Shown here: one piece after another, positions 32,837 to 49,666 of the stretch
How the letters are laid out: each line of letters begins with the position of its first letter
Position numbering within the stretch: the first letter of the stretch is position 1
Assembly (NCBI RefSeq): GCF_007752535.1
Contig: NZ_CP036426.1
Coordinates: forward strand, 4,402,001 to 4,466,000
DNA length: 64,000 nucleotides
Reading direction: 5' to 3'
Origin: Tautonia plasticadhaerens
GTDB lineage: Bacteria > Planctomycetota > Planctomycetia > Isosphaerales > Isosphaeraceae
Notes under the pieces: model-generated
The model's input: only the letters and a program-made list of their open reading frames with translations
Database searches by the model: none
Told to the model about the DNA's origin: nothing
Made by a program: the position numbers and the translations under genes

Positions 32837-33283
32837 ATGGACGATGCGAACATGATCCCGATCGTGGCGATCCTCATGCCCCTGTTCCTGGTGCCGACCG
32901 TGATGGTCCTCCGCCAGGCCTCCCGCAAGCGCGAGTGGCAGCACCGGGAGCGGATGAAGGCGATGGAGATGGGCCTGCCCGCCCCGGGGGCCGAGGCCTG
33001 GTCGGGACGGGCGGCGATCGCCATCGGCGCGGCGATGCCGGTCGCCGTCTTCGTCGTCGGCTGGTTCGCGAACATGACGACGCACAACGACGACGTCTGG
33101 GTCCCCGTCGCGCTGGTGGGCGGCGCCGGGGTGCTCGGCGGCCTCCGGCTGGCCGGCAAGAACATCGGCTCGATGATCCGGCCGACGCCCCGGCCCCAGC
33201 CCCGCCCCTCCGCCTTCGCCCGGGGAACCGCCAAGCCGCCCTTCGACCCCGACGCCTACGACGCCATCGCCCGGCACGGCTGA
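32837..33283 (+). CDS. Small membrane protein B, paralogue of the upstream gene
   Basis: 148 residues. One hydrophobic segment near the start (IPIVAILMPLFLVPTVMVL), the charged helix RKREWQHRERMKAMEMGLPAP, two further segments at about 58-80 and 90-105, and a tail ending PFDPDAYDAIARHG. The charged helix and the tail match those of the preceding gene, so the two are tandem paralogues with diverged membrane regions. It has a shorter N-terminus. 75 bp separate them, so they are likely co-transcribed. Convergent with the glycosyltransferase operon. Function unknown. Confidence 0.75.
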   Translation: MDDANMIPIVAILMPLFLVPTVMVLRQASRKREWQHRERMKAMEMGLPAPGAEAWSGRAAIAIGAAMPVAVFVVGWFANMTTHNDDVWVPVALVGGAGVLGGLRLAGKNIGSMIRPTPRPQPRPSAFARGTAKPPFDPDAYDAIARHG

Positions 33284-33336: not shown

Positions 33337-33624
33337 TCAGGCGGCCTCGGCCGTCGCCCCGATTCCCTCGGCCCCGGCCCGCCCCTCGGCGAGCTGGATC
33401 CGCAGTTGCTCCACCTGCATCTCCAGCCGGGCGATCTCCCGGACGCAGCTGTTCAGCGAGATGTTCATTTCATGATGCGAGACGTTCAGCGCGTGCAGGT
33501 GCTGCGCGATCGGGTCCCGGATCGTCCCCCCCAGCAGCGCGTCGAGCTTGCGACGGACGGGCCGCCGCACCACGTCGGTCAGGCCCCAGACCTTCTTGAT
33601 CGAAGACTTGATCAGCCGCTTCAT
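33337..33624 (-). CDS. Small coiled-coil protein at the end of the glycosyltransferase operon
   Basis: 95-residue protein with a basic N-terminus (MKRLIKSSIKKVWGL) and a heptad-like region at about 55-85 (REIARLEMQVEQLRIQLAEG), so probably a short coiled coil. No membrane helix. The ATG at 33624 overlaps the stop of the upstream glycosyltransferase by 4 bases (ATGA), so it is made in step with it. This suggests a partner or scaffold for the glycosyltransferase or the ABC exporter (inference). Confidence 0.7.
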   Translation of the reverse strand: MKRLIKSSIKKVWGLTDVVRRPVRRKLDALLGGTIRDPIAQHLHALNVSHHEMNISLNSCVREIARLEMQVEQLRIQLAEGRAGAEGIGATAEAA

Positions 33625-36113
33625 GTCGAGGTCCCTCCGGCGCCGGGCGAGCCGGCGAATCGACCCACCGCCTCGCCGGGCGCACACCGCTCGATGAGAT
33701 CGGCGTAGGCCCGGGCGGCGATCTTCCAGTCGTGATGCTTCCGGACGTGGTCGACCGCCGCATCGGCGATCGCCCGACGTCGGGATTCGTCCCGGGCCAG
33801 CGCGACCATCCGGTCGGCCAGGCCGTCCTCCCCGTCCCGTACCGGGTCCCATCGGACGACGGCCGACGGGGGGTAGTCGCGGAAGGTGGCGACGTCGGTG
33901 ACGATCGTCGCCACGCCGCAGCGGAGGAAGTCCAGCAGCGAGGCCGAGGTCTCCCCGTAGGTCGGAGGCCTCCTCAGGCCGAGCCCCACGTCGACCGAGC
34001 CGACCAGCCTCCCGTAGTCCTCCCTCGACGCCTTGCCCAGGAAGAGGGTGCGGTCCCCCACCCCCGACTCCCGGGCCAGGGCCAGGGCCCGTCCCCCTTC
34101 CCAGTCCTTGCCGACGAACAGGAGGAGCGCCCGATCGACCCGCCCGAGGACGTCGGCGAAGGCCCGGATCGCCTCCTCGTACATCTTCATCGAGGTCAGG
34201 TTGCCGAAGCAGCCGAACACGACCGCGTCGCCCGGGATGCCGAACCGCCTCCTCGTCTCCGCCACCTGCCCGGGGCCGGGGACGTCGATCGACGCCCCCA
34301 TCGGCACCACCACCGTCCGGTCCAGGTACTCCGGCAGGGCCGCCCGCACCAGGTCCCGGCAGTAGGGCGAGTGCACGACCACGAACCGGGACCGCTCGAA
34401 GATCTCCCGGTTCATGTGCACCCCTCGACGCGTCGCCGCGCCCTGGATGCCCCCCGGCTCCGATCGCCAGGCCTCCACGTCCTCGTCCGGCCCGATCGCC
34501 CCGGCCTCACGCTCCGCCTCGACGACCCGGTCGAAGTGGCCGGGGCGTACGTCCGGCTGGTGGCCGTACCAGAAGTGGAATCCGGACAGGTTGAAGTCAT
34601 GCAGGACGGTGATGCCGGGATGCTCGCGCAACAGTTCGTAGACCGATCGGTGGTACCACGAGTTCCCCATCTGGTAGACGACCGCGCGGTGGGGCAGCAC
34701 CTCCACCCTGCGGGCGAACGCGGCACGGTCGACGCAGCGGAACCGCCGGTCTCGCAGGCCGAGCTCGGGGACGTAGTCGCCGTCGTGATACAGGTCGACG
34801 GAGGCGTGATCGAGCAGCGCCCCGGCCAGCCTCGCCGCGTAGTCGGCGATCCCCGTCTCCTTGGGCGGCAGCGGCGAGACGAGCCCCACCCTCGGCCGAT
34901 CCGGGCCGATCCGGAGGTGCGGCCTCGGCGTCCGGCCGCCGATCGCCCCCAGGATCGCCGACCGGGCCTCCCTGCCGACGTCGTCCCACGACAGGCCCGC
35001 CGTCCGATCCAGGGCCTTCTTCCCCATCGAGGTCGCCAGTGCCGGGTCTTCCAGGAGCCGGCCGAGCGCCGAGCGGAGCCCCGCCGAGTCGCCCGGGTCG
35101 ACCAGCAGGCCCGCGTCGCCAACGAGGTCGCACTGCGACGAGTTCCGCCCGCCGATCACCGCCGCCCCGCTCCGCATCGCCTCCAGCAGCGGCAGCCCCA
35201 GCCCCTCATAGAGCGAGGGGAAGACGAACGCGGAACAGCGACGATAGAGCGTCTTCAACGTCCCGTCGTCGACGACCCCGAGGATCGCAACCTGGTCGCT
35301 TACGCCTCGATCCGCCGCGTACGCCGATATCCGCCCCTGATACGCCGCGCCGAAGTCGCCGACGAGGACGAGGGTGCTCGACTCCGGGGCCTCCGGGCCG
35401 AGGCCGGCGAAGGCGTCGATCACCCCCCAGACGTTCTTCCGATCGTCCCGGCCACCGACGTGGAGCACGAACGGCCCGGACACGCCGACCCGCCCGAGTG
35501 CGACGCCGTCCGGGCCCTCGTCGCCCCCGCCCGGGTCGGCCGGGCGGAAGTCCGGGTCGAGCGCGAAGGGCAGGGCGGCGACCCGATCGCCCCGGAGCCC
35601 GAGGCGAGATATGGCGTCACGCCGGGTCGACCCCGAGATCGCGAGGAACCGGTCGTAATGGCGGATCGCGTCCAGCCGCCTCCCATACCGACGGCGGACC
35701 CCGGGGTCCCCCAGGTACGATCCCGGGAACAGCAGCGGGATCAGGTCGTAGAGCACCGCCACGATCGGCACCCCGCCCGGCACCCGGGGAGGGGGCTCGA
35801 ACCCCGGGGACAGTTCGAACGGGTTGAGGAGCAACAGCGCATCGAGCCCGTCCGGGTTGTGGGCGGCGATCCGGGCCAATCGGCCCCGGATCGTGTCGTC
35901 CTCCTCGTCCCGGCCGATCTCGACCGACCGGACGCGACGGCCGTCGATCGGCGGGACCCGGTCACTCGGCAGATCCCGGCAGCGGTAGAGCACGAACTCG
36001 TCCCCGGGGCGGTGGCCCGCCAGGGACCGGAGCAGTTCGGCCGCGTATCGGCCGACGCCCCGGTCCCGGCTCCCCCCGGACTGGAGCGGCAGCAGGTCGA
36101 CGCCCAGTCGCAT
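33621..36113 (-). CDS. Double GT-B glycosyltransferase (two GT4 domains), second gene
   Basis: 830 residues, twice the usual GT4 length. First half (1-about 400): MRLGVDLLPLQ, then FVLHVGGRDDRKNVWGVIDAF and the donor motif PSLYEGLGLPLLEAM with both glutamates. Second half (about 410-830): PLPPKETGIADYAARLAGALL at its start, a phosphate-binding VFGCFGNLTSMKMYEEA, and a GETSASLLDFLRCG donor loop. Likely adds two sugars of a repeat unit. It is paralogous to the gene at 36113-38584 with the same domain order. Start ATG at 36113 overlaps the upstream stop by one base (TGATG); the in-frame reading extending to 36923 is antisense-type junk and rejected. Confidence 0.9.
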   Translation of the reverse strand: MRLGVDLLPLQSGGSRDRGVGRYAAELLRSLAGHRPGDEFVLYRCRDLPSDRVPPIDGRRVRSVEIGRDEEDDTIRGRLARIAAHNPDGLDALLLLNPFELSPGFEPPPRVPGGVPIVAVLYDLIPLLFPGSYLGDPGVRRRYGRRLDAIRHYDRFLAISGSTRRDAISRLGLRGDRVAALPFALDPDFRPADPGGGDEGPDGVALGRVGVSGPFVLHVGGRDDRKNVWGVIDAFAGLGPEAPESSTLVLVGDFGAAYQGRISAYAADRGVSDQVAILGVVDDGTLKTLYRRCSAFVFPSLYEGLGLPLLEAMRSGAAVIGGRNSSQCDLVGDAGLLVDPGDSAGLRSALGRLLEDPALATSMGKKALDRTAGLSWDDVGREARSAILGAIGGRTPRPHLRIGPDRPRVGLVSPLPPKETGIADYAARLAGALLDHASVDLYHDGDYVPELGLRDRRFRCVDRAAFARRVEVLPHRAVVYQMGNSWYHRSVYELLREHPGITVLHDFNLSGFHFWYGHQPDVRPGHFDRVVEAEREAGAIGPDEDVEAWRSEPGGIQGAATRRGVHMNREIFERSRFVVVHSPYCRDLVRAALPEYLDRTVVVPMGASIDVPGPGQVAETRRRFGIPGDAVVFGCFGNLTSMKMYEEAIRAFADVLGRVDRALLLFVGKDWEGGRALALARESGVGDRTLFLGKASREDYGRLVGSVDVGLGLRRPPTYGETSASLLDFLRCGVATIVTDVATFRDYPPSAVVRWDPVRDGEDGLADRMVALARDESRRRAIADAAVDHVRKHHDWKIAARAYADLIERCAPGEAVGRFAGSPGAGGTST

Positions 36114-38584
36114 CAGGCCACCCCCTCCCCGACGACCCGGGGCGACCTCGGCAGGCAGAGGCCCCGGTACGCGTCGATCAGCCGATCCCAGGAGTGCTCC
36201 GCCCTCGCATACGCCAGCGCGCCCCGGCCGACCCGAGCTCGACGCTCGTCGTCGAGGACGGCCATCCTCATGGCCGCGCCGAGCTGCGCGATCCCCGAAG
36301 CCTCGTCGTTCCAGGCGATCTTGATGACCGCGTCGCGGGGGTATCCGGCGAAGGTGCCCACGTCGCAGACGATCGTCGGCAGGCCTCGGCGGAGCAGGTC
36401 GAGCAGCGCGGCGGAGCTCTCGCCGTTGGTCGGCGGCCTCCGCAGGCAGAGGCCGACGTCGAACGCAGCGATCGCCCGCTCGTATTCCTCGTCCGGCAGG
36501 TGGCCGAGGAACCGGACCCGGTCGGCCACGCCGAGGCGGTCGGCCTCCCGGGCCGCCTCGCCGCCGCCGAGGTCCCGGCCGAGGAAGACGAGCACGGCGC
36601 CCGGGTCGTCTCCCAGGCTGCCGGCGAACGCCCGGACCGCCTCGCGGTTCAGCTTCGTCGGGTGCAGGATGCCGACCGCCCCGATCACCACCGCACCGTC
36701 CTCGACTCCCAGGGCCCGGCGGGCCTCCCGCCGAGGTCCGGGCCCGATCGGCGCCGCGTCGCAGCCGATCGGGGCGACGTGCACCTTGGCGGCCAGCCAC
36801 GGGTAGGCCGAGGCGATCCGCCCCTTGCTGTCCTCCGAGTGGACGATCACGCCCGTCGCGCGCTCCAGGATCCGGCGGTTCATCGTCACGCCTCGGCGGA
36901 CCATCTCCTCCTGGAGGTCCCACGTCCCCGGCACCCAGCCGGCGACCAGTCCCACCAGCTCCGGATCCCTCGCCTGGCCGGAGTAGGACAGCTCCTCGAC
37001 GAGGTGCGCGTTCATCCGCCCGGCGATCAGCCCGAAGCTCGCGTGGAAGCCGGGCAGGGCGTGGTCGTGCAGCACGGCGACGCCCGGATGCTTCAGGAAC
37101 GTCTCATACAGGTACGCGTGGTAGGACGAGTTCCCGAACTGGTAGACGACCGACTCGTAGCCGAGCAGGGCCCGCCTCCGCTCGAAGGTCGAGGCGTCGA
37201 GGCAGGCGAACCGGCTCGACGCGTCGGCCAGGACCGGCCGGTCATCCGGGGCGTGGTAGAGGTCGATCAGGGCGTCCTCACGCAACGATTCGCAGACGCG
37301 TTCGGCATAGCGGGCGATCCCCGACTGCACCGGGGGCAGCGGCGAGAACATCGCGATCCGGGGGCGCCCCGGGGGCCCGATCCCCCGACTCGTCGACCCG
37401 CCGACGATCCGGGGACGTCGTCCATCGTCGAGGGCCCGGAGGGCGCGATCGGCCACGTCGTCCCAGCGAAATTGCTCGGACCGCGCACGCCCCTGCGCCC
37501 CGAGCCGGCGACGGAGGGCCGGGTCGTCCAGCAGCCGCTCGAGGTGGGCGGCCAGGTCGCCCGGCTCGGCCGCGTTGGCGAGCAGCCCGGCGTCCCCCAC
37601 CACCTCCGGCTGCGACGAGTTGTCCGCCGCCACCACCGGCGCCCCGAGCTGCATCGCCTCCAGGATCGGCAGGCCGAACCCCTCGTACAGCGACGGGAAG
37701 ACGAACGCGGCGCAGCGACGATAGAGCGTGTCCAGCTCGTCCTGCCCCACGGAGTTCGTCAGCACCAGGCGGTCGTCGATCCCTGCGGCCTTCGCGTGGT
37801 CCCGGAGTTGATGGATCTCCTTCTCGATGAGCGAACACGTGACGACCAGTTGCGTGGCCGACCGCTGTCGGGCCGGCAGCAGGGCGAAGGCGTCGATCAG
37901 CCCCCGGAGGTTCTTCCTGGGGTCGCTGCTGCCGAGGCAGAACAGGAACGGCCGGTCGATGCCCAGGCGGTCGAGCACCGCCGCGTCCCGGGCCGGGTCG
38001 CCGCCCGGGTCCCGGGGCGACTCGCTGGCGGTGCCGATGGCGTGGACCCGGTCCGGGGGGAGCCCGAGCAGGCGGATGGTGTCCAGCCTCGTCGCCTCGG
38101 AGATCGCCAGGAACCGATCGTAGCGCGCGAGCCTCCCCAGGTGGCCGTAGAACCACCGGCCGACCTCCTCGCTCGTGAGGTAGGTCTCCTGGAACAGGAA
38201 CGGGATCACGTCGTAGACGACCGCCGCGGCCCTCGTCCGGCCGACCGGCCGGTGGGGCAGGCCGTAGAATTGCCAGGTCTCGAAGGGGCTGAGCAGCAGG
38301 AACCAATCCAGGTCGAGCCGCCCGGCGTCCTCCCGCAGGGCACGCTCGATGGCGTGCTGGAGCGTGTGCTCCTCGCGGCCGAGCTCCCGGCGGACCTCCC
38401 GGATCGTCGTCCGGGACGAGGTCGGCAGGGCGTCCCGGGGGAGGTCCTCATACGTGTACAGGACGTACTCGTTCGCCCGATCGGCCTCGAGCATCGCCGC
38501 CAGCAGGCTGCGGGCGTACCGGCCGATGCCTCGGCCCCGGCTGAACGGGGACTGGATGGCCAGCGCGTCGACCCCGATTCGCAC
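36113..38584 (-). CDS. Double GT-B glycosyltransferase (two GT4 domains), first gene
   Basis: 823 residues with two fused GT-B units. First unit: MRIGVDALAIQSPFSRG, donor helix FLFCLGSSDPRKNLRGLIDAF, and PSLYEGFGLPILEAMQLG with the EX7E pair. Second unit begins near residue 405 (PLPPVQSGIARYAERVC) and has VIGAVGILHPTKLNREAVRAF and a TNGESSAALLDLLRRG loop. It and the next gene match along their whole length, so one arose from the other. GTG start at 38584 with a strong GGAGGAGG seven bases upstream. The operon order (permease, ATPase, GTs) suits an ABC-dependent polysaccharide pathway. Confidence 0.9.
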   Translation of the reverse strand: MRIGVDALAIQSPFSRGRGIGRYARSLLAAMLEADRANEYVLYTYEDLPRDALPTSSRTTIREVRRELGREEHTLQHAIERALREDAGRLDLDWFLLLSPFETWQFYGLPHRPVGRTRAAAVVYDVIPFLFQETYLTSEEVGRWFYGHLGRLARYDRFLAISEATRLDTIRLLGLPPDRVHAIGTASESPRDPGGDPARDAAVLDRLGIDRPFLFCLGSSDPRKNLRGLIDAFALLPARQRSATQLVVTCSLIEKEIHQLRDHAKAAGIDDRLVLTNSVGQDELDTLYRRCAAFVFPSLYEGFGLPILEAMQLGAPVVAADNSSQPEVVGDAGLLANAAEPGDLAAHLERLLDDPALRRRLGAQGRARSEQFRWDDVADRALRALDDGRRPRIVGGSTSRGIGPPGRPRIAMFSPLPPVQSGIARYAERVCESLREDALIDLYHAPDDRPVLADASSRFACLDASTFERRRALLGYESVVYQFGNSSYHAYLYETFLKHPGVAVLHDHALPGFHASFGLIAGRMNAHLVEELSYSGQARDPELVGLVAGWVPGTWDLQEEMVRRGVTMNRRILERATGVIVHSEDSKGRIASAYPWLAAKVHVAPIGCDAAPIGPGPRREARRALGVEDGAVVIGAVGILHPTKLNREAVRAFAGSLGDDPGAVLVFLGRDLGGGEAAREADRLGVADRVRFLGHLPDEEYERAIAAFDVGLCLRRPPTNGESSAALLDLLRRGLPTIVCDVGTFAGYPRDAVIKIAWNDEASGIAQLGAAMRMAVLDDERRARVGRGALAYARAEHSWDRLIDAYRGLCLPRSPRVVGEGVA

Positions 38585-38610
38585 GGTGTCCTCCTCCAGG
38601 TGCTCGATGC

Positions 38611-38656
38611 GGGTCGGGTCGGGTCGGGTCGGGTCGGGCCGGGCCGGGGGGGAGTC
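38611..38656 (+). repeat. (GGGTC)n G-run array, G-quadruplex-prone
   Basis: Five copies of GGGTC (38611-38635) followed by two GGGCC and a run of seven G. G-triplets every five bases on the plus strand could form a quadruplex. It lies just upstream of the glycosyltransferase start on the opposite strand, where the mRNA would be C-rich. Confidence 0.7.
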
Positions 38657-38680
38657 GGGCTGCCCCCCCGGGCGGCCCCG

Positions 38681-39454
38681 TCAGGCCGCCTCGGCCGGAT
38701 GTCCCGCGGAGACGGGCTGGGCCTCTCCGACGTGATCATAATAACGTTCAATCACAGCGCCGATCGGCCCGTCGGCCTGGACCACGCCCCGGTCGATCCA
38801 GATCCCCCGGGTGCAGATCCGGGCCAGCGCGTCCATGTCGTGCGAGACGACGATCACGACGTTCGAGCGGTCGATCACGCTCATGATCCGGTCGTGGGCC
38901 CTGGCCTTGAAGGTCGCGTCGCCGACGCTGAGCGTCTCGTCCAGCAGCAGGATGTCCGGGTCGACCTCCGTCGCCACGGCGAACGACAGGCGGGAGAGCA
39001 TGCCGCTGGAGTAGTACTTCAGCGGCAGCGAGGAGAACTCCCTCAGCCCGGAGAACTCCCAGATCCGGTCGATCCGGGCGCGCATCTGCTTGCGGTCGAA
39101 GCCCAGCAGGGCGCCGTTGAGGTAGATGTTGTCCTCGCCCGACAGCTCGTAGTTGAACCCGGCCCCCATCTCGATCAGCGGCGCGACCCGCCCCTCGACC
39201 TTCAGGCGGCCGCCCGACGGCGGGTAGATCCCGGCCAGGACGCGCAGCAGGGTGCTCTTGCCGGCCCCGTTGGGCCCGACGATCCCCACCCGCTCCCCCC
39301 GGCCGATCGCCAGGTCGATGCCGCTGAGCGCCCAGAATGACGCCTGGTTGCTCCCCTCCCTGCGGAGGAACAGGTCGATGCAGGCACGCTTGAGCGAGTA
39401 ATACTTGTCGTTGTAGGTGGTGAACCGCAGCGACACGCCCCGCAGCTCGATCAC
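38681..39454 (-). CDS. ABC transporter ATP-binding protein, polysaccharide export (Wzt/KpsT/TagH-like, short form)
   Basis: 257 residues from the GTG at 39454. Complete nucleotide-binding domain: Walker A GPNGAGKST, signature YSSGMLSRL, Walker B ILLLDETLSVGD, switch histidine VSHDMD. The N-terminal FTTYNDKYYSLKRACIDLFLRR is typical of polysaccharide-export NBDs. It ends just after the NBD, with no carbohydrate-binding extension as in Wzt, so the pathway is likely capsule- or teichoic-type. An in-frame ATG at 39541 would overlap the permease by 47 bp and add a run of glycines; less likely. Pairs with the permease encoded directly upstream. Confidence 0.93.
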   Translation of the reverse strand: MIELRGVSLRFTTYNDKYYSLKRACIDLFLRREGSNQASFWALSGIDLAIGRGERVGIVGPNGAGKSTLLRVLAGIYPPSGGRLKVEGRVAPLIEMGAGFNYELSGEDNIYLNGALLGFDRKQMRARIDRIWEFSGLREFSSLPLKYYSSGMLSRLSFAVATEVDPDILLLDETLSVGDATFKARAHDRIMSVIDRSNVVIVVSHDMDALARICTRGIWIDRGVVQADGPIGAVIERYYDHVGEAQPVSAGHPAEAA

Positions 39455-39494: not shown

Positions 39495-40370
39495 TCAGAG
39501 CCGGAAGACAAGCCTGTCCTCGTACGACTTGAACGTGACATAGCCGATTCCCAGGACGACCGCCGCGATCCCGGCGGTGGAGGAGACAAGCACCCACGAC
39601 GGCCAACTGGCATCGTAGATGACGACGTGGAAGAACCGGATGAACGCGTACGCCGGGTTGAGCCAGAACCGCCAGGCCAGGTCCTCCGGCAGCGAGTCGA
39701 TCGGGTACATGATCGGCGTGGCGAAGTACCAGGCCTGGATGATCACCGACAGCAGGTGGCCGAAGTCCCGGTAGAAGGTGTTGATCGTCGACGCGATCAG
39801 GCTCAAACCCAGGATGAACGCCGAGAACAGCAGGAACCCGACCGGCACCAGCACCAATGACGGCGTGAGTCGCACCCCGAGCGGCACCATCAGCAGGAAC
39901 AGCGCCGTCATCGACGACGCCTGCATCATGCTGTTCAGCAGCAGCCGGGAGAGGGGGAAGATCAGCTTCGGGATGTAGATCTTCCGGATCAAATACTCGT
40001 TGGAGATGATGCAGGTCGACGACTCCGTCACCGTCATGTTCAGCAGCGTCCACGGCACCATCCCCGAGAAGAGGTACAGCGCGTAGTCGACCCCGCCCTT
40101 CTCGAACCGGAAGATCGTCGAGAAGACGACCGACATGACGGCCATCATCAGGATCGGGTTGAGCAGCGTCCACATGAAGCCCAGCAGCGACCGCTGGTAG
40201 CGCACCCTCAGGTCCTGGGCGACGAGGTTCGTCAGCACCGCCCGGTAGCGATACAGCTCCCGGGCGTCCCGATGGAGGGTGGCGAACCAGTTCACGCCGG
40301 GCAGCCCGTCGCCGTCCGGGGGGAAGACCTGGGGGATCGGCGCCGTCGGCGACGAGACCTGTGTGGCCAT
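39495..40370 (-). CDS. ABC-2 type permease, polysaccharide export (Wzm/TagG-like)
   Basis: 291-residue integral membrane protein with six hydrophobic segments, the family norm. It begins ARELYRYRAVLTNLVAQDLRVRY, the entry amphipathic stretch of ABC-2 polysaccharide exporters, and contains RKIYIPKLIFPLS and a final conserved YSLNP-type segment (here NPAYAFIRFFHVVIYD). Together with the following ATPase it should carry a lipid-linked polysaccharide across the inner membrane. ATG at 40370 with GGAAGTG upstream. It is followed 40 bp later by the ATPase. Confidence 0.92.
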   Translation of the reverse strand: MATQVSSPTAPIPQVFPPDGDGLPGVNWFATLHRDARELYRYRAVLTNLVAQDLRVRYQRSLLGFMWTLLNPILMMAVMSVVFSTIFRFEKGGVDYALYLFSGMVPWTLLNMTVTESSTCIISNEYLIRKIYIPKLIFPLSRLLLNSMMQASSMTALFLLMVPLGVRLTPSLVLVPVGFLLFSAFILGLSLIASTINTFYRDFGHLLSVIIQAWYFATPIMYPIDSLPEDLAWRFWLNPAYAFIRFFHVVIYDASWPSWVLVSSTAGIAAVVLGIGYVTFKSYEDRLVFRL

Positions 40371-40465: not shown

Positions 40466-41851
40466 TCATCGGCCGATCGCTCCCGATCGGCCGACTGGAC
40501 CGGCGGCCGACGGCCCTCGGACCGCCCGGATCATACGGGATTCGCCCGGCTTGGGAAGACCAACCCGCGCGGTTCCCGACGCCAGGCCGGAGGCCCAGGC
40601 GGCCATCAACGGCTCGATCGGCACGTGGAACCGCGCCGAGACGATCGTCAGGGCGTGGAACGCCGCGATCAGCGCCGCCGCCAGCAGCGTCGGCGCCATC
40701 CGCCGTCGGAGGCCCGGGCCCATCGCGATCCAGCCGAGCACGGCCAGGGTCGTCAGGCCGAGGTGGCCCGCCCGGTAGACCAGGCTCCGGGTCTTCGGAT
40801 TCGTCTCGTCCCACAGGACGAACGCCCGGAACCGATCCAGGCAGAGCCTGGGGTAGCGGGCCGGGTCGGCCCGGAGGTCGTCCAGGGCCCGTCGGAACAG
40901 CAGCCGGGACCGGGCGGGCTCGCCGAGGGCCCCGAGCGTCCGGTAGTCCTCGGCCGTCAACGCGACGTCGTCGATGTAGCCGGCCTCGTGCCTCGCCTCC
41001 CAGAACGCCCGGTTGCGGTCCGCGAGGCTGCCCCCCCCCTCGTCGAGGATGCGGTCGACCGAGGGGCGCACCACCTTGTCCGTCCCCTCGCTGATCGCGC
41101 AATTCCCCTGCCAGAAGGCGTAGCCGAAGGTGCTCTTCACGGGCACGAACTCGCCGTGCACGCGGTAATTCCGGGCGACCCAGGGCGAGACGACCAGCGC
41201 CGCCACGATCCCGATCGTCGCCAGCGGCCGGATCGACCCGGCCGCCCCCCGGCCCCGCACCATCGCCCAGGCCATCCCGGACGAGATCAGCCCGAGGATC
41301 GGGTCGGTGAGCACCAGGATCCCCAGAACCGCCCCCGCCCCGATCGCGTCCCCCCGCCGGCCGGTCCGGGCCGATCGGTAGGCCATCGCGAGCGAGGCCG
41401 TCACCAGCAGCGCCGCCAGCCCCGCCACCTGGACGTGCGTCGCCGAATAGACGAGCGTCGGGTGGACCGCCGCGATCAGGCCGGCGACGACCGCCATCCT
41501 CGGCCTCCCCGGCGCCAGCTCCCGGACGAGGGCCATCGTCGCGAGGGCCGTCAATCCCCCGAGGATCGCCTGGCCGAGTTGCAGGAGCAACAGGGCCTCG
41601 GGCGTCTCGCCCCCCCCGACCCCGAACGCCGCCGCGACCAGCACCGGGTAGGTCGGCGCCTGCTGCGAGGTCGGCCCGTCGTCGCCGAGGAACCGGATCG
41701 AGAACCCCCGGCCGTCGAGGAGGTTCGCGGCGATCTCGCCGTGTTCATACGTGCTCCGGGGCACGGTATGGCTCTGGAGCACCAGCACCGCCGCGACCCG
41801 GGCCGCGACGGCGAGCAAGGCGACCGCGATGATCGCGCGATGGTGTGACAT
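40466..41851 (-). CDS. GT39/ArnT-like membrane glycosyltransferase
   Basis: 461 residues with many hydrophobic segments (about 9-28, 90-110, 122-145, 180-200, 217-235, 370-392, 395-415). An HGEIAANLLDGRGFS loop with acidic and polar residues after helix 1 matches the dolichol-phosphate-mannose/undecaprenyl-phosphate glycosyltransferase (PMT/ArnT) type; a conserved Asp is likely in the GDDGPTSQQAPTYP region. It would transfer a sugar from a polyprenyl carrier outside the cytoplasmic membrane. Start ATG 41851 with GGGAG upstream, preferred to TTG 41860. It leads the operon, 95 bp before the permease; the C-terminal 50 residues are Arg/Gly-rich. Confidence 0.75.
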   Translation of the reverse strand: MSHHRAIIAVALLAVAARVAAVLVLQSHTVPRSTYEHGEIAANLLDGRGFSIRFLGDDGPTSQQAPTYPVLVAAAFGVGGGETPEALLLLQLGQAILGGLTALATMALVRELAPGRPRMAVVAGLIAAVHPTLVYSATHVQVAGLAALLVTASLAMAYRSARTGRRGDAIGAGAVLGILVLTDPILGLISSGMAWAMVRGRGAAGSIRPLATIGIVAALVVSPWVARNYRVHGEFVPVKSTFGYAFWQGNCAISEGTDKVVRPSVDRILDEGGGSLADRNRAFWEARHEAGYIDDVALTAEDYRTLGALGEPARSRLLFRRALDDLRADPARYPRLCLDRFRAFVLWDETNPKTRSLVYRAGHLGLTTLAVLGWIAMGPGLRRRMAPTLLAAALIAAFHALTIVSARFHVPIEPLMAAWASGLASGTARVGLPKPGESRMIRAVRGPSAAGPVGRSGAIGR

Positions 41852-44674: not shown

Positions 44675-47600
44675 TTACTTGGTGAGGACCTCGTCCAGGT
44701 TCATCAGCTGGTTCGCCAGCATCGTCCAGGCGGCCAGGGTGCCCGGGTCGAGCGTCGGGTCGGCCGGCGATTCGCCGACGGCGACCAGCGCCTTCGCGTC
44801 GCCCGGGTTCCCCTCGTAGTGGGCGAGCAGGTCGCCCAGGGATTCCCTGGCGATCGACCCCTCCTCGGCTTCCAGTGGCCGTGCGAGCAGCCGGAGGGCC
44901 ATCGAGGCGATCCGCTCGTCGTCCGACGCCTCCCGGTCCCGCAGGACCCGCTCGGCCAGGTGCCGGGCGGCCTCGACGAACTGCACGTCGTTGAGGGTGA
45001 CCAACGCCTGGAGCGGCGTGTTGGTCCGCTCCCGGCGGACGGTGCAATACTCCCGGCTCGGGGCGTTGAACGTCTCCAGCGAGGCCGGCGGCGCGGCCCG
45101 CTTCCAGAAGGTGTAGAGGCTGCGGCGGTAGAGGCCCTCGCCGCGGTCCCGCTCGTAGAACCGGGTGTTGCTCTCCGGCATGGCGACCGCGTCCCAGACG
45201 CCCCCCGGCTGGTACGGCTTCACGCTCGGACCGCCCAGCTCCTCCACCAGCAGGCCGCTGGCCGCCAGCGCGTAGTCGCGGATCATCTCGCCGTCCATCC
45301 GGAACCGGGGGCCGCGGGAGAGCAGGCGATTCTGCGGGTCGCGTTCCAGTTTCTCCGGGGTGACGGCGCCCGACTGGCGGTAGGCGGCCGAGCAGACCAT
45401 GAGCTTGTAGAGTTTCTTCATGTCCCAGCCAGATTCCCGGAACTCGACCGCCAGCCAGTCGATCAGCCCCGGGTGCGACGGCAGTTCCCCGGTGACGCCG
45501 AAGTCCCCGGCGGTGGCGACCAGGCCGGTCCCGAAGAGTTCCTGCCAGGCCCGGTTGACGGCGACCCGGGCGGTCAGCGGGTGGTCCTCCCGGAACAGCC
45601 AGCGGGCCAGGCCCAGCCGGTCGCCCGGCTGGTCGTCGCCCATCGGGGGCAGGATCTCGGGGGTGCCCGCCGAGACCTCGTCGAGGCGCCGGTCGTACTC
45701 GCCCCGGTGCAGGACGAAGGCCTTTGCCGGCCCGGGGCGCTCCGTCGTCACGTGGGCGATCGTCCCCCGGGCCTTGATCTCGGCCCCCTCGGCCTCCAGG
45801 GCGGCGAGCCGGGCCTGGAGCCCCGCGCTCGCCTCGTCGACGAAGGCGAGCCACCAGTCGAAGGCGGCGTCCACCTCGGGGGCCGGCCACCCGTCGGCCG
45901 GGGCCATCGCCAGCCGGACGGCGCGGTCTCCCCCCGAGAGCCGGGCCAGCTCGACGGTCGACAACGCCCGGTCATAGACCCGCACGTCCCGGATCGTCAC
46001 GCCGTCGAGCCGGCTCGAGTTGCTCCGCCGGCCGACCTCCAGGGGCACCTCGGCCCGGGTCGTCCCCGAGAGCGAATCGGCCGCCACGTCGACCGCCTGG
46101 GGCTGGCCGTCGATGGCGACGGTCAGCCCCGAGGCCTTGCCCGAGCCGTCGTAGGAGATGACGACGTGGGTCCACGTGTCCCGGGGCACCTCGGCCCGGG
46201 AGACGACCTTCAGCGCGTCCCCGGGCCAACGGTGGACGAGGTGGCCGCCGACCCGGTTGTTCTCCAGCCAGAGGTCCCAGCCCCGGAAGCCCTCGCCGTC
46301 GTCCATCCGGGCGACGATCGCGCCGCTCATGTTCCGCCGGGGCACCTTGATCCAGGCGGAGGCGGTGTAGGGGGCGTCCCGGTCGAAGTCGCCCGCCCCG
46401 GCGATCTCCAGTGCGTTGGCCGGCCCCGGGACGATCCCCTCGCCGAGCCGGGCGAGCAGCGTCTCGCCCTCGGTCGGGAGGTGTGACGCGATCGACTCGG
46501 GCGTCGCCCCGGCGAGCCAGCGGTCGAACTCGGGCCGGGCCTCCTCCTTTCGAGAGTCGGCCTCGGCGCGGGCCCCGGCCAATTCGGCCTCCAGCTCCTC
46601 CCAGCGGGTGCGGTCGCGGGGGGCGGGCACGGGGATGATCGGGGGCGTGTCCCGGATGTTGCCGTCCAGGGCCCCCTGGGTGGTGTTGTTGAAGAAGGCG
46701 GCCAGCTCGTAGAACTCGCGCTGGCTGATCGGGTCGAACTTGTGGTCGTGGCAGACGGCGCAGCCGGCGGTCAGGCCGAGGAAGACGGTGCCGAAGGTCT
46801 CGGTGCGGTCCCGGGTGTAGCCGACGAGGTTCTCCTCCGGGATCGTGCCGCCCTCGTTCGTGGTGATGTTGCAGCGGTTGAAGCCGGTGGCGACGAGCTG
46901 GTCCAGGGTGCGGTCGGGCAGGAGGTCCCCGGCGAGCTGCTCCACCGCGAACCGGTCGTACGGCAGGTTGCGGTTGAAGGCGTCGATGACCCAGTCGCGG
47001 TACGACCACATCTCCCGCTCGTTGTCGAAGTGCAGGCCGTGCGTGTCGGCATATCGGGCGGCGTCGAGCCAGTACCGGGAGCGGTGCTCCCCCCATCGGG
47101 GAGACGCGAGCAGGCGGTCGACGTACGCCTCATAGGCGTCGGGCGAGGTGTCTTCCACGAACGCCTCGACCTCTCCCGGCTCGGGAGGCAGGCCCGTCAG
47201 GTCCAGGCTGACGCGGCGGGCCAGGGTGCGGAGGTCGGCCTCGGGGGCGGGGGCGAGCCCGGCCTCGTCGAGCTTCGAGAGGACGAAGGCGTCGATCGGG
47301 TTGCGGATCCAGGTCGGGTCGGAGACCACCGGCAGCCCGGGACGATCGGGCGGGATGAACGACCAGTGCGGCTCGTATTCGGCCCCTGAGGCGACCCAGC
47401 GGCGGAGCGTCTCCTTCTGCTGGGCCGTCAACGTTTTGTGCGACGAGGGGGGCGGCATCGCTTCCAGCTCGTCCTCGGACTCGACCCGGTAGATCAGCTC
47501 GCTGGCGTCGGGGTCGCCGGGGACGATGGGGGCGTAGCCCCCTCGGTCGGCGAAGGCGTCACCCGGGCGGTCGAGCCGGAGGTCGGCCTCGCGAGAGGCG

Positions 47601-48160: not shown

Positions 48161-49666
48161 TCAGTCCGACCAGGAGAAGCCCCGGCGGTGGGCCGACTCG
48201 GGGATCAGCCTCAGCGCCTCGGCCAGGGCCGAGGCCGAGGCGTCCCGGGAGGCCAGGGACCGCATCCGTCGACGGCCCGCCTCGGCCATCCGGTGGTAGC
48301 GGTCGCGGTCCCGGTCGGCGACCCGGGCGGCCTCGATCAGGTGGTCGTGCAACTGCTGCCAATTCAGGCGGTGCCAGGACGTCTCGAACCGGGGCTCGGG
48401 GTCGTGGGGGATGTAGGTCGGCTCGGGGTGGCTGGGGATGACGAAGGCGACCTGGTCGTCCAGGTAATCCTCCATCGCCGTGTGCCTCGGGGCGATCCCC
48501 GGCCGGCCGGCGGCCAGCGCCTCCTGGAGCGGCAGGCAGGCCCCCTCGGCCTTGCTCGTGTTCAGGTAGTAGGTCGTCGCCCGGTTCAGCGAGGCGAGAT
48601 CCTCATCACTCAGGTAATCGGTGATGGCGACCACCCGGCAGGAGTGCCGGATGTTCATCCGCTCGTACCGGGTCCGCAGCTCCTTCAGCTCGAAGTACTC
48701 GCGGTCCGGGTTGGTGGCCAGCTTCAAGACGAGCGTGGCGTCGGGCCGGTCCTGGAAGGCGAGCAGGAAGGCGGAGACCAGGTCGTCGATGTTCTTCCGG
48801 CGGTCCCCCAGGTTGAAGATGCTGGTGAACACCAGGCCGTCGAGGCGCAGGGTCGCCAGCGGGGGCCGGAGGATCCGGGTGGCGGCGGTCCGGCGGACCA
48901 GGCGGTTCTTGGCCTGGAAGAGGGCCTCGGCGGCCTCCTCGCTCAGGTACCGCATCACCTTCGCCTTGTAGAAGTCCCGGCCGCCCCGATAGGCGTCGCC
49001 GGTCAGGCGCTGCCAGGCCGGCCGGTCCGGGTCGTCGGCGGCCGAGAGCCGGGGGCGGGGGGGGGCCTGGTCGTCCCCCGAGGGGGGGCGGCCGTCGAAG
49101 ACGACGTGGCGGCATTCCAGCTCGAAGGCCCAGCCCGGATCCCAGTCGGGGACGGCGAAGGCCGAGTCGGGCAGCGGCACGGGGACGACCGCCACCGGGG
49201 GCCGCAGGCCGGACCGCCTGAACGTCGACGCGGTGAACCGGCAGGCGGCGATCACCAGGTCGGTGCGGTCGAGGATCCGCTTCCAGTTCTGCCGGGTGTC
49301 GAGGCCCAGGTCGCGGTCGGGGAGCTTCGGGAACTCCCAGAACGGGAAGGCGACGGTGGGCACGTCCGGCGTCAGGTAGGCGTTGTGCGGCGGGTGGAGG
49401 CAGAGGTGGATCGGCGTCAGGCCCTGCTCCCTGGCCCGACAGGCCCGGTAGGAGAGGCTGCTCTCGGGCTGCTCGACCACCTGCCAGGGGCCCAGGCGGT
49501 CGAGCACCGGCGCCATCGCCTTGAGGACGAAGGCATACGAGTAGTCGGCGTTTCCCATGTTCCGCCGGATGTCCTTCGCCCCGGCCGTGGTGCTGACCAG
49601 GAAGCAGGGGGCCCCCGGCCGGGGGTCCGCGGCGGGACGGGGCGTCGAGCCGATGGCTGCGTTCAT
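48161..49666 (-). CDS. GT4-like glycosyltransferase, divergent
   Basis: 501 residues. N-terminal part has HLCLHPPHNAYLTPDVP and the WEFPKLPDRDLG stretch; the donor domain has GLVFTSIFNLGDRRKNIDDLVSAF, ADYLSDEDLASLNRATTYY-like helices and a KAEGACLPLQEALAAGRPGIA loop with Glu pair, as in GT4 enzymes. About 100 residues longer than the family norm. A possible role is decoration of a surface glycan or protein; it is not in an operon with other sugar genes. ATG at 49666 with GGGAGGAACC upstream; upstream in-frame sequence is discarded. Confidence 0.82.
   Translation of the reverse strand: MNAAIGSTPRPAADPRPGAPCFLVSTTAGAKDIRRNMGNADYSYAFVLKAMAPVLDRLGPWQVVEQPESSLSYRACRAREQGLTPIHLCLHPPHNAYLTPDVPTVAFPFWEFPKLPDRDLGLDTRQNWKRILDRTDLVIAACRFTASTFRRSGLRPPVAVVPVPLPDSAFAVPDWDPGWAFELECRHVVFDGRPPSGDDQAPPRPRLSAADDPDRPAWQRLTGDAYRGGRDFYKAKVMRYLSEEAAEALFQAKNRLVRRTAATRILRPPLATLRLDGLVFTSIFNLGDRRKNIDDLVSAFLLAFQDRPDATLVLKLATNPDREYFELKELRTRYERMNIRHSCRVVAITDYLSDEDLASLNRATTYYLNTSKAEGACLPLQEALAAGRPGIAPRHTAMEDYLDDQVAFVIPSHPEPTYIPHDPEPRFETSWHRLNWQQLHDHLIEAARVADRDRDRYHRMAEAGRRRMRSLASRDASASALAEALRLIPESAHRRGFSWSD

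Follow-up and report, generated by a model that had tools for sequence, protein, structure and literature searches.

What do two adjacent double glycosyltransferases build, and what does the small protein encoded directly behind them contribute? The question is raised by a locus of Tautonia plasticadhaerens (assembly GCF_007752535.1, contig NZ_CP036426.1), located on the minus strand of the 64,000-nucleotide stretch from 4,402,001 to 4,466,000, which is referred to here as the window. The two glycosyltransferase (GT) genes, named GT1 and GT2, and the gene of the 95-residue protein were found to form the 3′ end of a wzm-wzt operon, which encodes an ATP-binding cassette (ABC) exporter of the O-antigen type. 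An earlier note on this DNA, made from the letters alone, had overlooked this exporter as well as the established WbdA/WbdD scheme of glycan assembly. The reading that we lean towards is a transporter-coupled polysaccharide polymerase module in which the small protein takes the scaffold part of WbdD.

Gene order and conservation of the operon

The features of the operon are given below with their positions in the window.

40466–41851, minus strand: GT-C-like membrane protein, upstream neighbour (weak PMT_2; PF13231 E 7e-4, below cut-off)
39495–40370, minus strand: wzm-like ABC permease (PF01061, E 1.4e-14)
38681–39454, minus strand: wzt-like ABC ATPase, 257 residues (PF00005 present, PF14524, Wzt_C, absent)
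36113–38584, minus strand: GT1, dual GT-B glycosyltransferase, 823 residues, GTG start (open reading frame, Pfam, predicted structure)
37415–38584, minus strand: GT1 first half, residues 1–390, canonical GT4 with RKN and EX7E (E301, E309); YD replaces HD
36149–37363, minus strand: GT1 second half, residues 408–812, with HD (506–507), K644 and altered EX7E (G721-E722 ... D729)
33621–36113, minus strand: GT2, dual glycosyltransferase and GT1 paralogue, 830 residues, ATG start (open reading frame, Pfam, alignment)
34944–36113, minus strand: GT2 first half, residues 1–390, canonical GT4 motifs
33669–34901, minus strand: GT2 second half, about residues 405–815, with HD, K and a YGETS motif
33337–33624, minus strand: small all-helical protein, 95 residues, its N-terminal helix basic and amphipathic with W..T....RRP, followed by a coiled-coil-like helix

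The sequence GGAGGAGG lies a few bases upstream of the GTG start of GT1. At the GT1/GT2 junction, TGATG, a single base (36113) is common to both genes and GT2 starts within the stop codon of GT1; at the GT2/small gene junction, ATGA, the start codon of the small gene overlaps the GT2 stop by four bases (33621–33624). The gene positions and both overlaps had been given exactly in the earlier note. The run ends with the small gene, which is faced by a convergent gene at 32837–33283. A short tandem repeat of GACCC was also observed at 38585–38680, between wzt and GT1 and immediately ahead of the ribosome-binding site of GT1.

All three further genomes of the genus (L035, L036 and L037; L denotes loci and G genomes) show the same succession, GT-C, wzm, wzt, GT1, GT2, small gene, with both overlaps, and the GT-C-like protein has orthologues at the same place in them. 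In three genome pairs, the ratio of nonsynonymous to synonymous substitution rates (dN/dS) was 0.04–0.35 for the five genes from wzm to the small gene, indicating purifying selection. Because order and overlaps recur and these ratios are low, chance open reading frames were ruled out. Gene calls in the neighbourhoods came from a purpose-made codon-usage caller.

The two dual glycosyltransferases

GT1 and GT2 are paralogous over their full length, as had been noted before, with 42% identity across GT1 residues 1–810 (E 2e-160), and each contains two Glycos_transf_1 stretches (Pfam). The claim of two complete GT-B halves per protein was borne out by these matches and by the AlphaFold model of GT1, which was built on a 21-sequence alignment and shows two separate GT-B domains at about residues 1–392 and 407–813 (predicted local distance difference test score, pLDDT, 86.3; predicted template modelling score, pTM, 0.65); this fold evidence covers GT1. 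The first domain matched GlgM (6tvp; Z 36.1, root-mean-square deviation 3.0, 360 residues aligned) and the second matched SenB (8jjq; Z 28.1, deviation 2.9, 305 aligned). The VIA rows of the structure comparison were filled mostly by the first half of GT1. The top Foldseek match, the capsule multienzyme 8qoy, was set aside owing to its poor alignment (template modelling score 0.35, deviation 14.3).

The roles ascribed here to the conserved residues are those established for GT4 enzymes in general. The first halves retain R223-K224-N225 and E301/E309 (GT1 numbering), and Tyr124 occurs in nearly all of 15 first-half rows; the Klebsiella WbdA-like protein has His at that place. In the second halves, H506-D507, K644, E722 and S724 are each conserved in at least 90% of 21 sequences from several phyla, and a half-to-half profile alignment places E301 on G721 and E309 on D729 (GX7D), with E722 one place on. 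From this conservation and the alignment, the second halves would seem to be a GT4 type of their own, itself conserved, in which the acid is shifted. The loss of all catalytic features from these halves, a possibility raised in the earlier note, is not what was found, since the His-Asp pair, the lysine and the GE[ST]S motif are kept. The dN/dS values of the GT halves were 0.09–0.28 in the three genome pairs.

A recent tandem duplication was considered and is not supported. GT1 and GT2 form separate, fully supported clades with the four genus genomes in each, and the clades do not come out as sisters, whether the tree is built on first halves, on second halves or on whole proteins; the trees give no firm branching order for the GT1 clade, the GT2 clade and other genera. 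Two tandem dual GTs were observed only in this genus, and other genera carry a single GT, dual or reduced, with the small gene.

Linkage of the small gene to the glycosyltransferases

A survey of 45 genomes of the host family (dual-GT profile at E≤1e-60, small profile at E≤1e-4) identified the dual GT in 18 genomes and the small gene in 20, with all 18 among the 20. The profiles were built from some of the same loci, and G438 is an independent case. A total of 20 GT units, a unit being a single GT or a tandem pair, came from these 18 genomes plus G053, with the two contig-end pieces of G018 taken together. In all 19 observable units the GT is followed immediately, on its 3′ side, by the small gene; in the twentieth (G032), the GT runs off the contig end and the small gene is on a separate contig. 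Thus, the small helical partner stays with the GT, and the earlier note's doubt whether the linkage would be found elsewhere is answered by its conservation in relatives. The GT-small overlap is four bases in 10 of the 19 units, including L044 (with corrected start) and L213, and the other nine have gaps of 6–63 bases. In G021 and G033 (L041 and L159), a further small copy lies directly after wzt with no GT between, a hint of a link to the transporter.

A Wzm-like permease was matched in 41 of the 45 family genomes at E≤1e-30, 37 of these at E≤1e-70. In four loci with no GT (L201, L203, L206 and L211), wzm-wzt stands in its usual family-wide setting and nothing similar follows wzt. The GT and the small gene are read as a putative module added onto an older exporter. 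Weak small copies (E ~1e-8) were also observed in G017 and G031 (L162:1306-1746 and L163:5838-6269), with no GT and no close Wzm; both stand in the usual wzm-wzt setting and are perhaps relics. Outside the host family, the small gene was found in one genome of another family, G053. A draw of 392 genomes across the phylum gave a small-family match only in the window, but with just 11 candidates scored per genome and the other known positives missed too, so that absence elsewhere does not follow from it. Three weak small-family matches, in G036, G039 and G033, were dropped as chance; those in G036 and G039 have surroundings unrelated to this locus.

Relatives in other phyla and comparison with known systems

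The scan for relatives covered the best 80 of 578 confirmed stretches, and 29 of these 80 loci were annotated. Among the matches listed, both half types occur in one protein from Massilia and Marinobacterium to Synechococcus and Paenibacillus, and in the named relatives of several phyla both halves are 26–35% identical to GT1. Many annotated loci show wzm, wzt, a methyltransferase protein (slot protein below) and a multi-GT protein in this order. In Klebsiella spallanzanii (L158), the order wzm-wzt-(methyltransferase/kinase protein)-dual GT-GT-GT resembles WbdD/WbdA, and from this order we infer that L158_6, the protein in the WbdA position, is WbdA. It aligned to the dual-GT profile A1 with probability 100 over columns 26–763 (hhalign), strongly over the first half and poorly over the second, where its second module keeps GEGFGLPLIEA in place of the GX7D of the window. 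A gammaproteobacterial locus (L093:6143-10586) contains, among the genes listed, wzm, a short wzt, an 85-residue gene with no Pfam match and a dual GT; this 85-residue gene is possibly a parallel small partner.

An ABC-transporter-dependent polymerase system with a multi-GT WbdA and a coiled-coil WbdD as membrane-associated scaffold is known already, and is presented as an established scheme in PMC11231755; according to PMC3482155, a non-catalytic C-terminal region of WbdD brings WbdA to the membrane. As in the WbdA/WbdD systems of E. coli O9a and K. pneumoniae O3 polymannose, wzm-wzt in the window adjoins a dual GT with a homologous first half, and the small helical protein may be the counterpart of the coiled-coil protein by which the polymerase of the described system is brought together at the membrane. 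In contrast to them, the window has two dual GTs with a different second-half type, a partner of only 95 residues with a basic helix before its coil-like part, and a Wzt with no Wzt_C. We liken the system in its working to a WbdA/WbdD-type assembly machine and do not class it as a member, because EX7E in the second module, a kinase or methyltransferase terminator domain in the partner and Wzt_C were each looked for and are absent. What sets the system apart is the tandem of dual GTs, the altered second-half motif, the Wzt lacking Wzt_C and, at the usual place of a terminator protein, a small helical protein with no catalytic domain.

A likeness was also observed to the K. pneumoniae O2a/O1 galactan systems (WbbM, WbbY and Wzm-Wzt), which, according to PMC11231755 and PMC10629545, use dual-GT polymerases (a pair in O1); the window Wzm and Wzt score below the galactan model cut-offs, and WbbM/WbbY were compared by description only. 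Loci of Massilia, Rugamonas, Ramlibacter, Marinobacterium and others share the same half types, with 31–35% identity to GT1 and wzm-wzt upstream. Their multi-GT proteins are longer than the window GTs (1020–1368 residues) and are preceded by a methyltransferase protein, and Wzt_C, absent from the window Wzt, is present where tested (L081 and L086).

The Wzm-Wzt exporter

The galactan models were the top NCBIfam matches of both window proteins, each below cut-off: NF050108 (galactan Wzt) scored 222.7 bits against a cut-off of 400, and NF050109 (galactan Wzm) 76 bits against 380. Ten Wzts were drawn from the many available for a test of the carbohydrate-binding domain Wzt_C (PF14524). It was present in all five whose loci have a methyltransferase slot protein and in none of the other five (window, L038, L046, L093 and L099); L099, counted in the latter set, has a LicD protein beside wzt. 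The absence of Wzt_C fits an export that does not read a capped chain end. No methyltransferase or kinase domain was identified by Pfam in the window operon genes or the nearest neighbours scanned.

The small helical protein

From its sequence alone, the window protein was predicted by AlphaFold as one helix spanning residues 2–94 (pLDDT 82). It had no Pfam or NCBIfam match, and no methyltransferase or kinase domain was found in any of the 18 family members scanned. The TolA coiled-coil trimerisation family (TolA_bind_tri) was matched by 3 of the 18 copies (best E 1e-4), and PDB profile matches of the family were mostly generic coiled coils (best E 0.005). The N-terminal hydrophobic moment was above shuffles (p<0.05) in 12 of the 18 copies, with p=0.035 for the window copy, whose first 18 residues carry a net charge of +4. 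In this comparison, as in that of heptad periodicity, the L044 copy was taken from an internal start, the full start being corrected later. The dN/dS of the small gene was 0.15, 0.04 and 0.17 in the three genome pairs. Nothing on this family or on the dual GTs of these bacteria was found in the openly licensed PMC literature.

A WRxTxPLR motif of slot proteins was counted in this analysis. The pattern W[RK]xTxPxR was observed in 13 of 853 neighbourhood proteins (shuffle mean 0.2), of which 5 belong to the small family and 8 are methyltransferase proteins directly preceding a multi-GT gene. Strict matches occur in 5 of 23 distinct small proteins, and the corrected start of L044 adds a sixth. 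A profile of the eight motif slot proteins ranked two further slot proteins first (L088_9 and L079_7). With 21 of 24 small entries scored, the area under the curve was 0.81, compared with 0.54–0.68 for eight column-shuffled decoys, and 5 small entries stood in the top 20, compared with 0–3 in the decoys. The shared motif may be taken as a lead to a common recruiting function, without being proof of homology.

Proposed role and alternative explanations

Most likely, a lipid-linked repeat is made by GT1 and GT2, which the small protein keeps tethered to the membrane. Like WbdA, both GTs would act in the cytoplasm as dual transferases of the GT4 type and polymerise an undecaprenyl-linked glycan. 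The 95-residue protein would bind the inner membrane by its basic amphipathic N-terminal helix, and its helical region would oligomerise and hold the GTs in a complex at the membrane or the transporter. Wzm-Wzt would export the glycan with no capped end, since the domain with which other systems read a chemically capped chain end is missing from the window Wzt, and the product, presumably displayed at the cell surface, need not be an O-antigen. In a more specific version, which we offer as speculation and hold to be doubtful, the small family would be a minimal, terminator-free scaffold coupling two dual polymerases (four active sites) to a sensor-less Wzt. Chain length would then be set by the geometry of the complex or the export rate rather than by capping, and the scaffold would join a short oligomerising helix to a membrane helix bearing a WbdD-like motif for recruiting the polymerase.

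Several observations weigh against the favoured reading, and they are set out here with the alternatives that draw on them. The coiled coil named in the earlier note stands in part: one helix is predicted and heptad periodicity is significant (p<0.05) in 10 of 18 small copies, but the window copy gave p=0.35 and none of the four genus copies was significant. The W[RK]xTxPxR pattern was selected after the sequences had been inspected, and the window protein, reading WGLTDVVR, has no strict match. In the slot-protein profile, small-family members rank next after the slot proteins only at E 0.12 or worse (two of these entries, L052_6 and L097_7, are a single gene entered twice), and in slot proteins the motif comes after a long stretch assessed by eye as coil-like, in the small family before the coil-like part. 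The GT-small unit lies directly after wzt in only 8 of 19 genomes (G000-G003, G010, G018, G020 and G027); wzm-wzt is ~6–26 kb away in G011, G021, G023, G028 and G033, and on another contig or not seen in G004, G012, G019, G032, G053 and G438.

These last 11 of 19 genomes, in which the unit is not directly after wzt or not seen so, would suit GT1 and GT2 as adaptor or side-chain transferases of a chain polymerised elsewhere in the Wzy manner, and two Wzy_C proteins above cut-off are encoded in the genome. We regard this as improbable, since ABC-dependent export is normally paired with cytoplasmic polymerisation and no other multi-GT protein accompanies wzm-wzt in the window. Nor do we expect the small protein to be a transporter accessory, regulator or export coupler with no part in GT scaffolding; this reading draws on the copies directly after wzt in G021 and G033 and is rather unlikely given the position of the small gene behind the GT in every observable unit, including loci far from wzm-wzt. 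A similar standing is given to the second halves as pseudo-transferases with a binding or structural role, leaving two of four modules catalytic. Their EX7E is replaced by (N/Y)GE(S/T)SA..LLD with loss of the second acid, and in several relatives they are motif-poor or reduced to stubs of differing length with the first half and small gene kept (L044_6, L213_2, L048_8, L050_6, L051_4 and L052_7). On the other hand, the conserved H506-D507, K644, E722 and S724, the predicted GT-B fold close to SenB and a dN/dS of 0.10–0.26, similar to the first halves, argue against this reading. More room is left for two polymerases acting one after the other on one chain, each with its own repeat, in the manner of WbbM (O2a) and WbbY (O1), which PMC11231755 and PMC10629545 describe as dual-GT polymerases. 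Each gene alone has the complete dual-polymerase architecture, GT1 and GT2 are old, distinct clades, and genomes outside the genus make do with one GT and the small gene; although the fixed tandem order and one-base overlap in all four genus genomes favour a joint function, they do not prove it, and we judge the two-block chain quite possible, if short of probable. The earlier suggestion that four modules assemble a multi-sugar repeat in fixed order did not hold as stated: one WbdA module adds two or three residues, according to PMC11231755, so the module number does not give the repeat length and four modules need not imply a four-sugar repeat; two blocks are of similar plausibility, and a canonical EX7E is missing from the second halves.

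The small protein could also be the recruiting half of a WbdD-like function, with an FkbM-type cap encoded away from the operon here. A search of the 853 neighbourhood proteins for the FkbM start pattern, together with Pfam, placed FkbM methyltransferases immediately behind the small gene on its 3′ side in G018 and G053, next after wzt in G004 and near the small gene in G010, G019 and G032, at the following positions.

L043:6916-7941, FkbM methyltransferase (Pfam)
L161:1588-2847, FkbM methyltransferase (Pfam)
L208:3392-4585, FkbM methyltransferase (Pfam)
L050:2217-3344, FkbM methyltransferase (Pfam)
L160:3718-4776, FkbM methyltransferase (Pfam)
L044:12278-13420 (L044_9, G019), FkbM methyltransferase (pattern only)

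These six are candidate terminators, and FkbM proteins fill the terminator slot in L079, L088 and L095. As FkbM genes lie beside or near either the small gene or wzt in these six relatives, their systems may include a terminator; the claim that one is absent throughout was dropped, and "terminator-free" may be true of this operon alone or may not apply at all. Against a cap encoded elsewhere, the Wzts of the window, L038 and L046 lack Wzt_C, and the FkbM start pattern was found in none of the 48 window genes and nowhere in L035-L037 (19–20 kb each), in a pattern search that did not extend to a profile search of the whole genome. We consider this division of labour somewhat unlikely.

If the preferred scaffold reading is true, ABC-dependent glycan assembly can have its coiled-coil scaffold in the form of a separate small protein. 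The two roles of WbdD, polymerase recruiting on the one hand and chain measuring and capping on the other, would then be split in a small, testable system. The frequency of the Wzm-like permease in the family also bears on the view of the planctomycete envelope in PMC3422733, a genome survey of 2012, which suggested that O-antigen would be dispensable given the protein wall and cited the lack of the pathway in Rhodopirellula baltica.

Neighbouring genes

Two minus-strand tRNA-Ser predictions (40625–40721 and 45799–45896) lie inside protein-coding genes and are probably spurious. A further gene for a GT4-like protein was identified in the window.

48161–49666, minus strand: GT4-like protein, 501 residues (Glyco_trans_1_4, E 5e-7)

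Its homologues stand beside the dual GT in L041, L042 and L046, and it is a possible adaptor transferase of the same pathway. An MBOAT acyltransferase was observed near the dual GT (L041:7107-8522, Pfam), with genes of similar start in L039, L040, L042 and L047, which suggests glycan acylation. In some loci, several proteins of 360–400 residues with a similar start lie next to the MBOAT-type gene.

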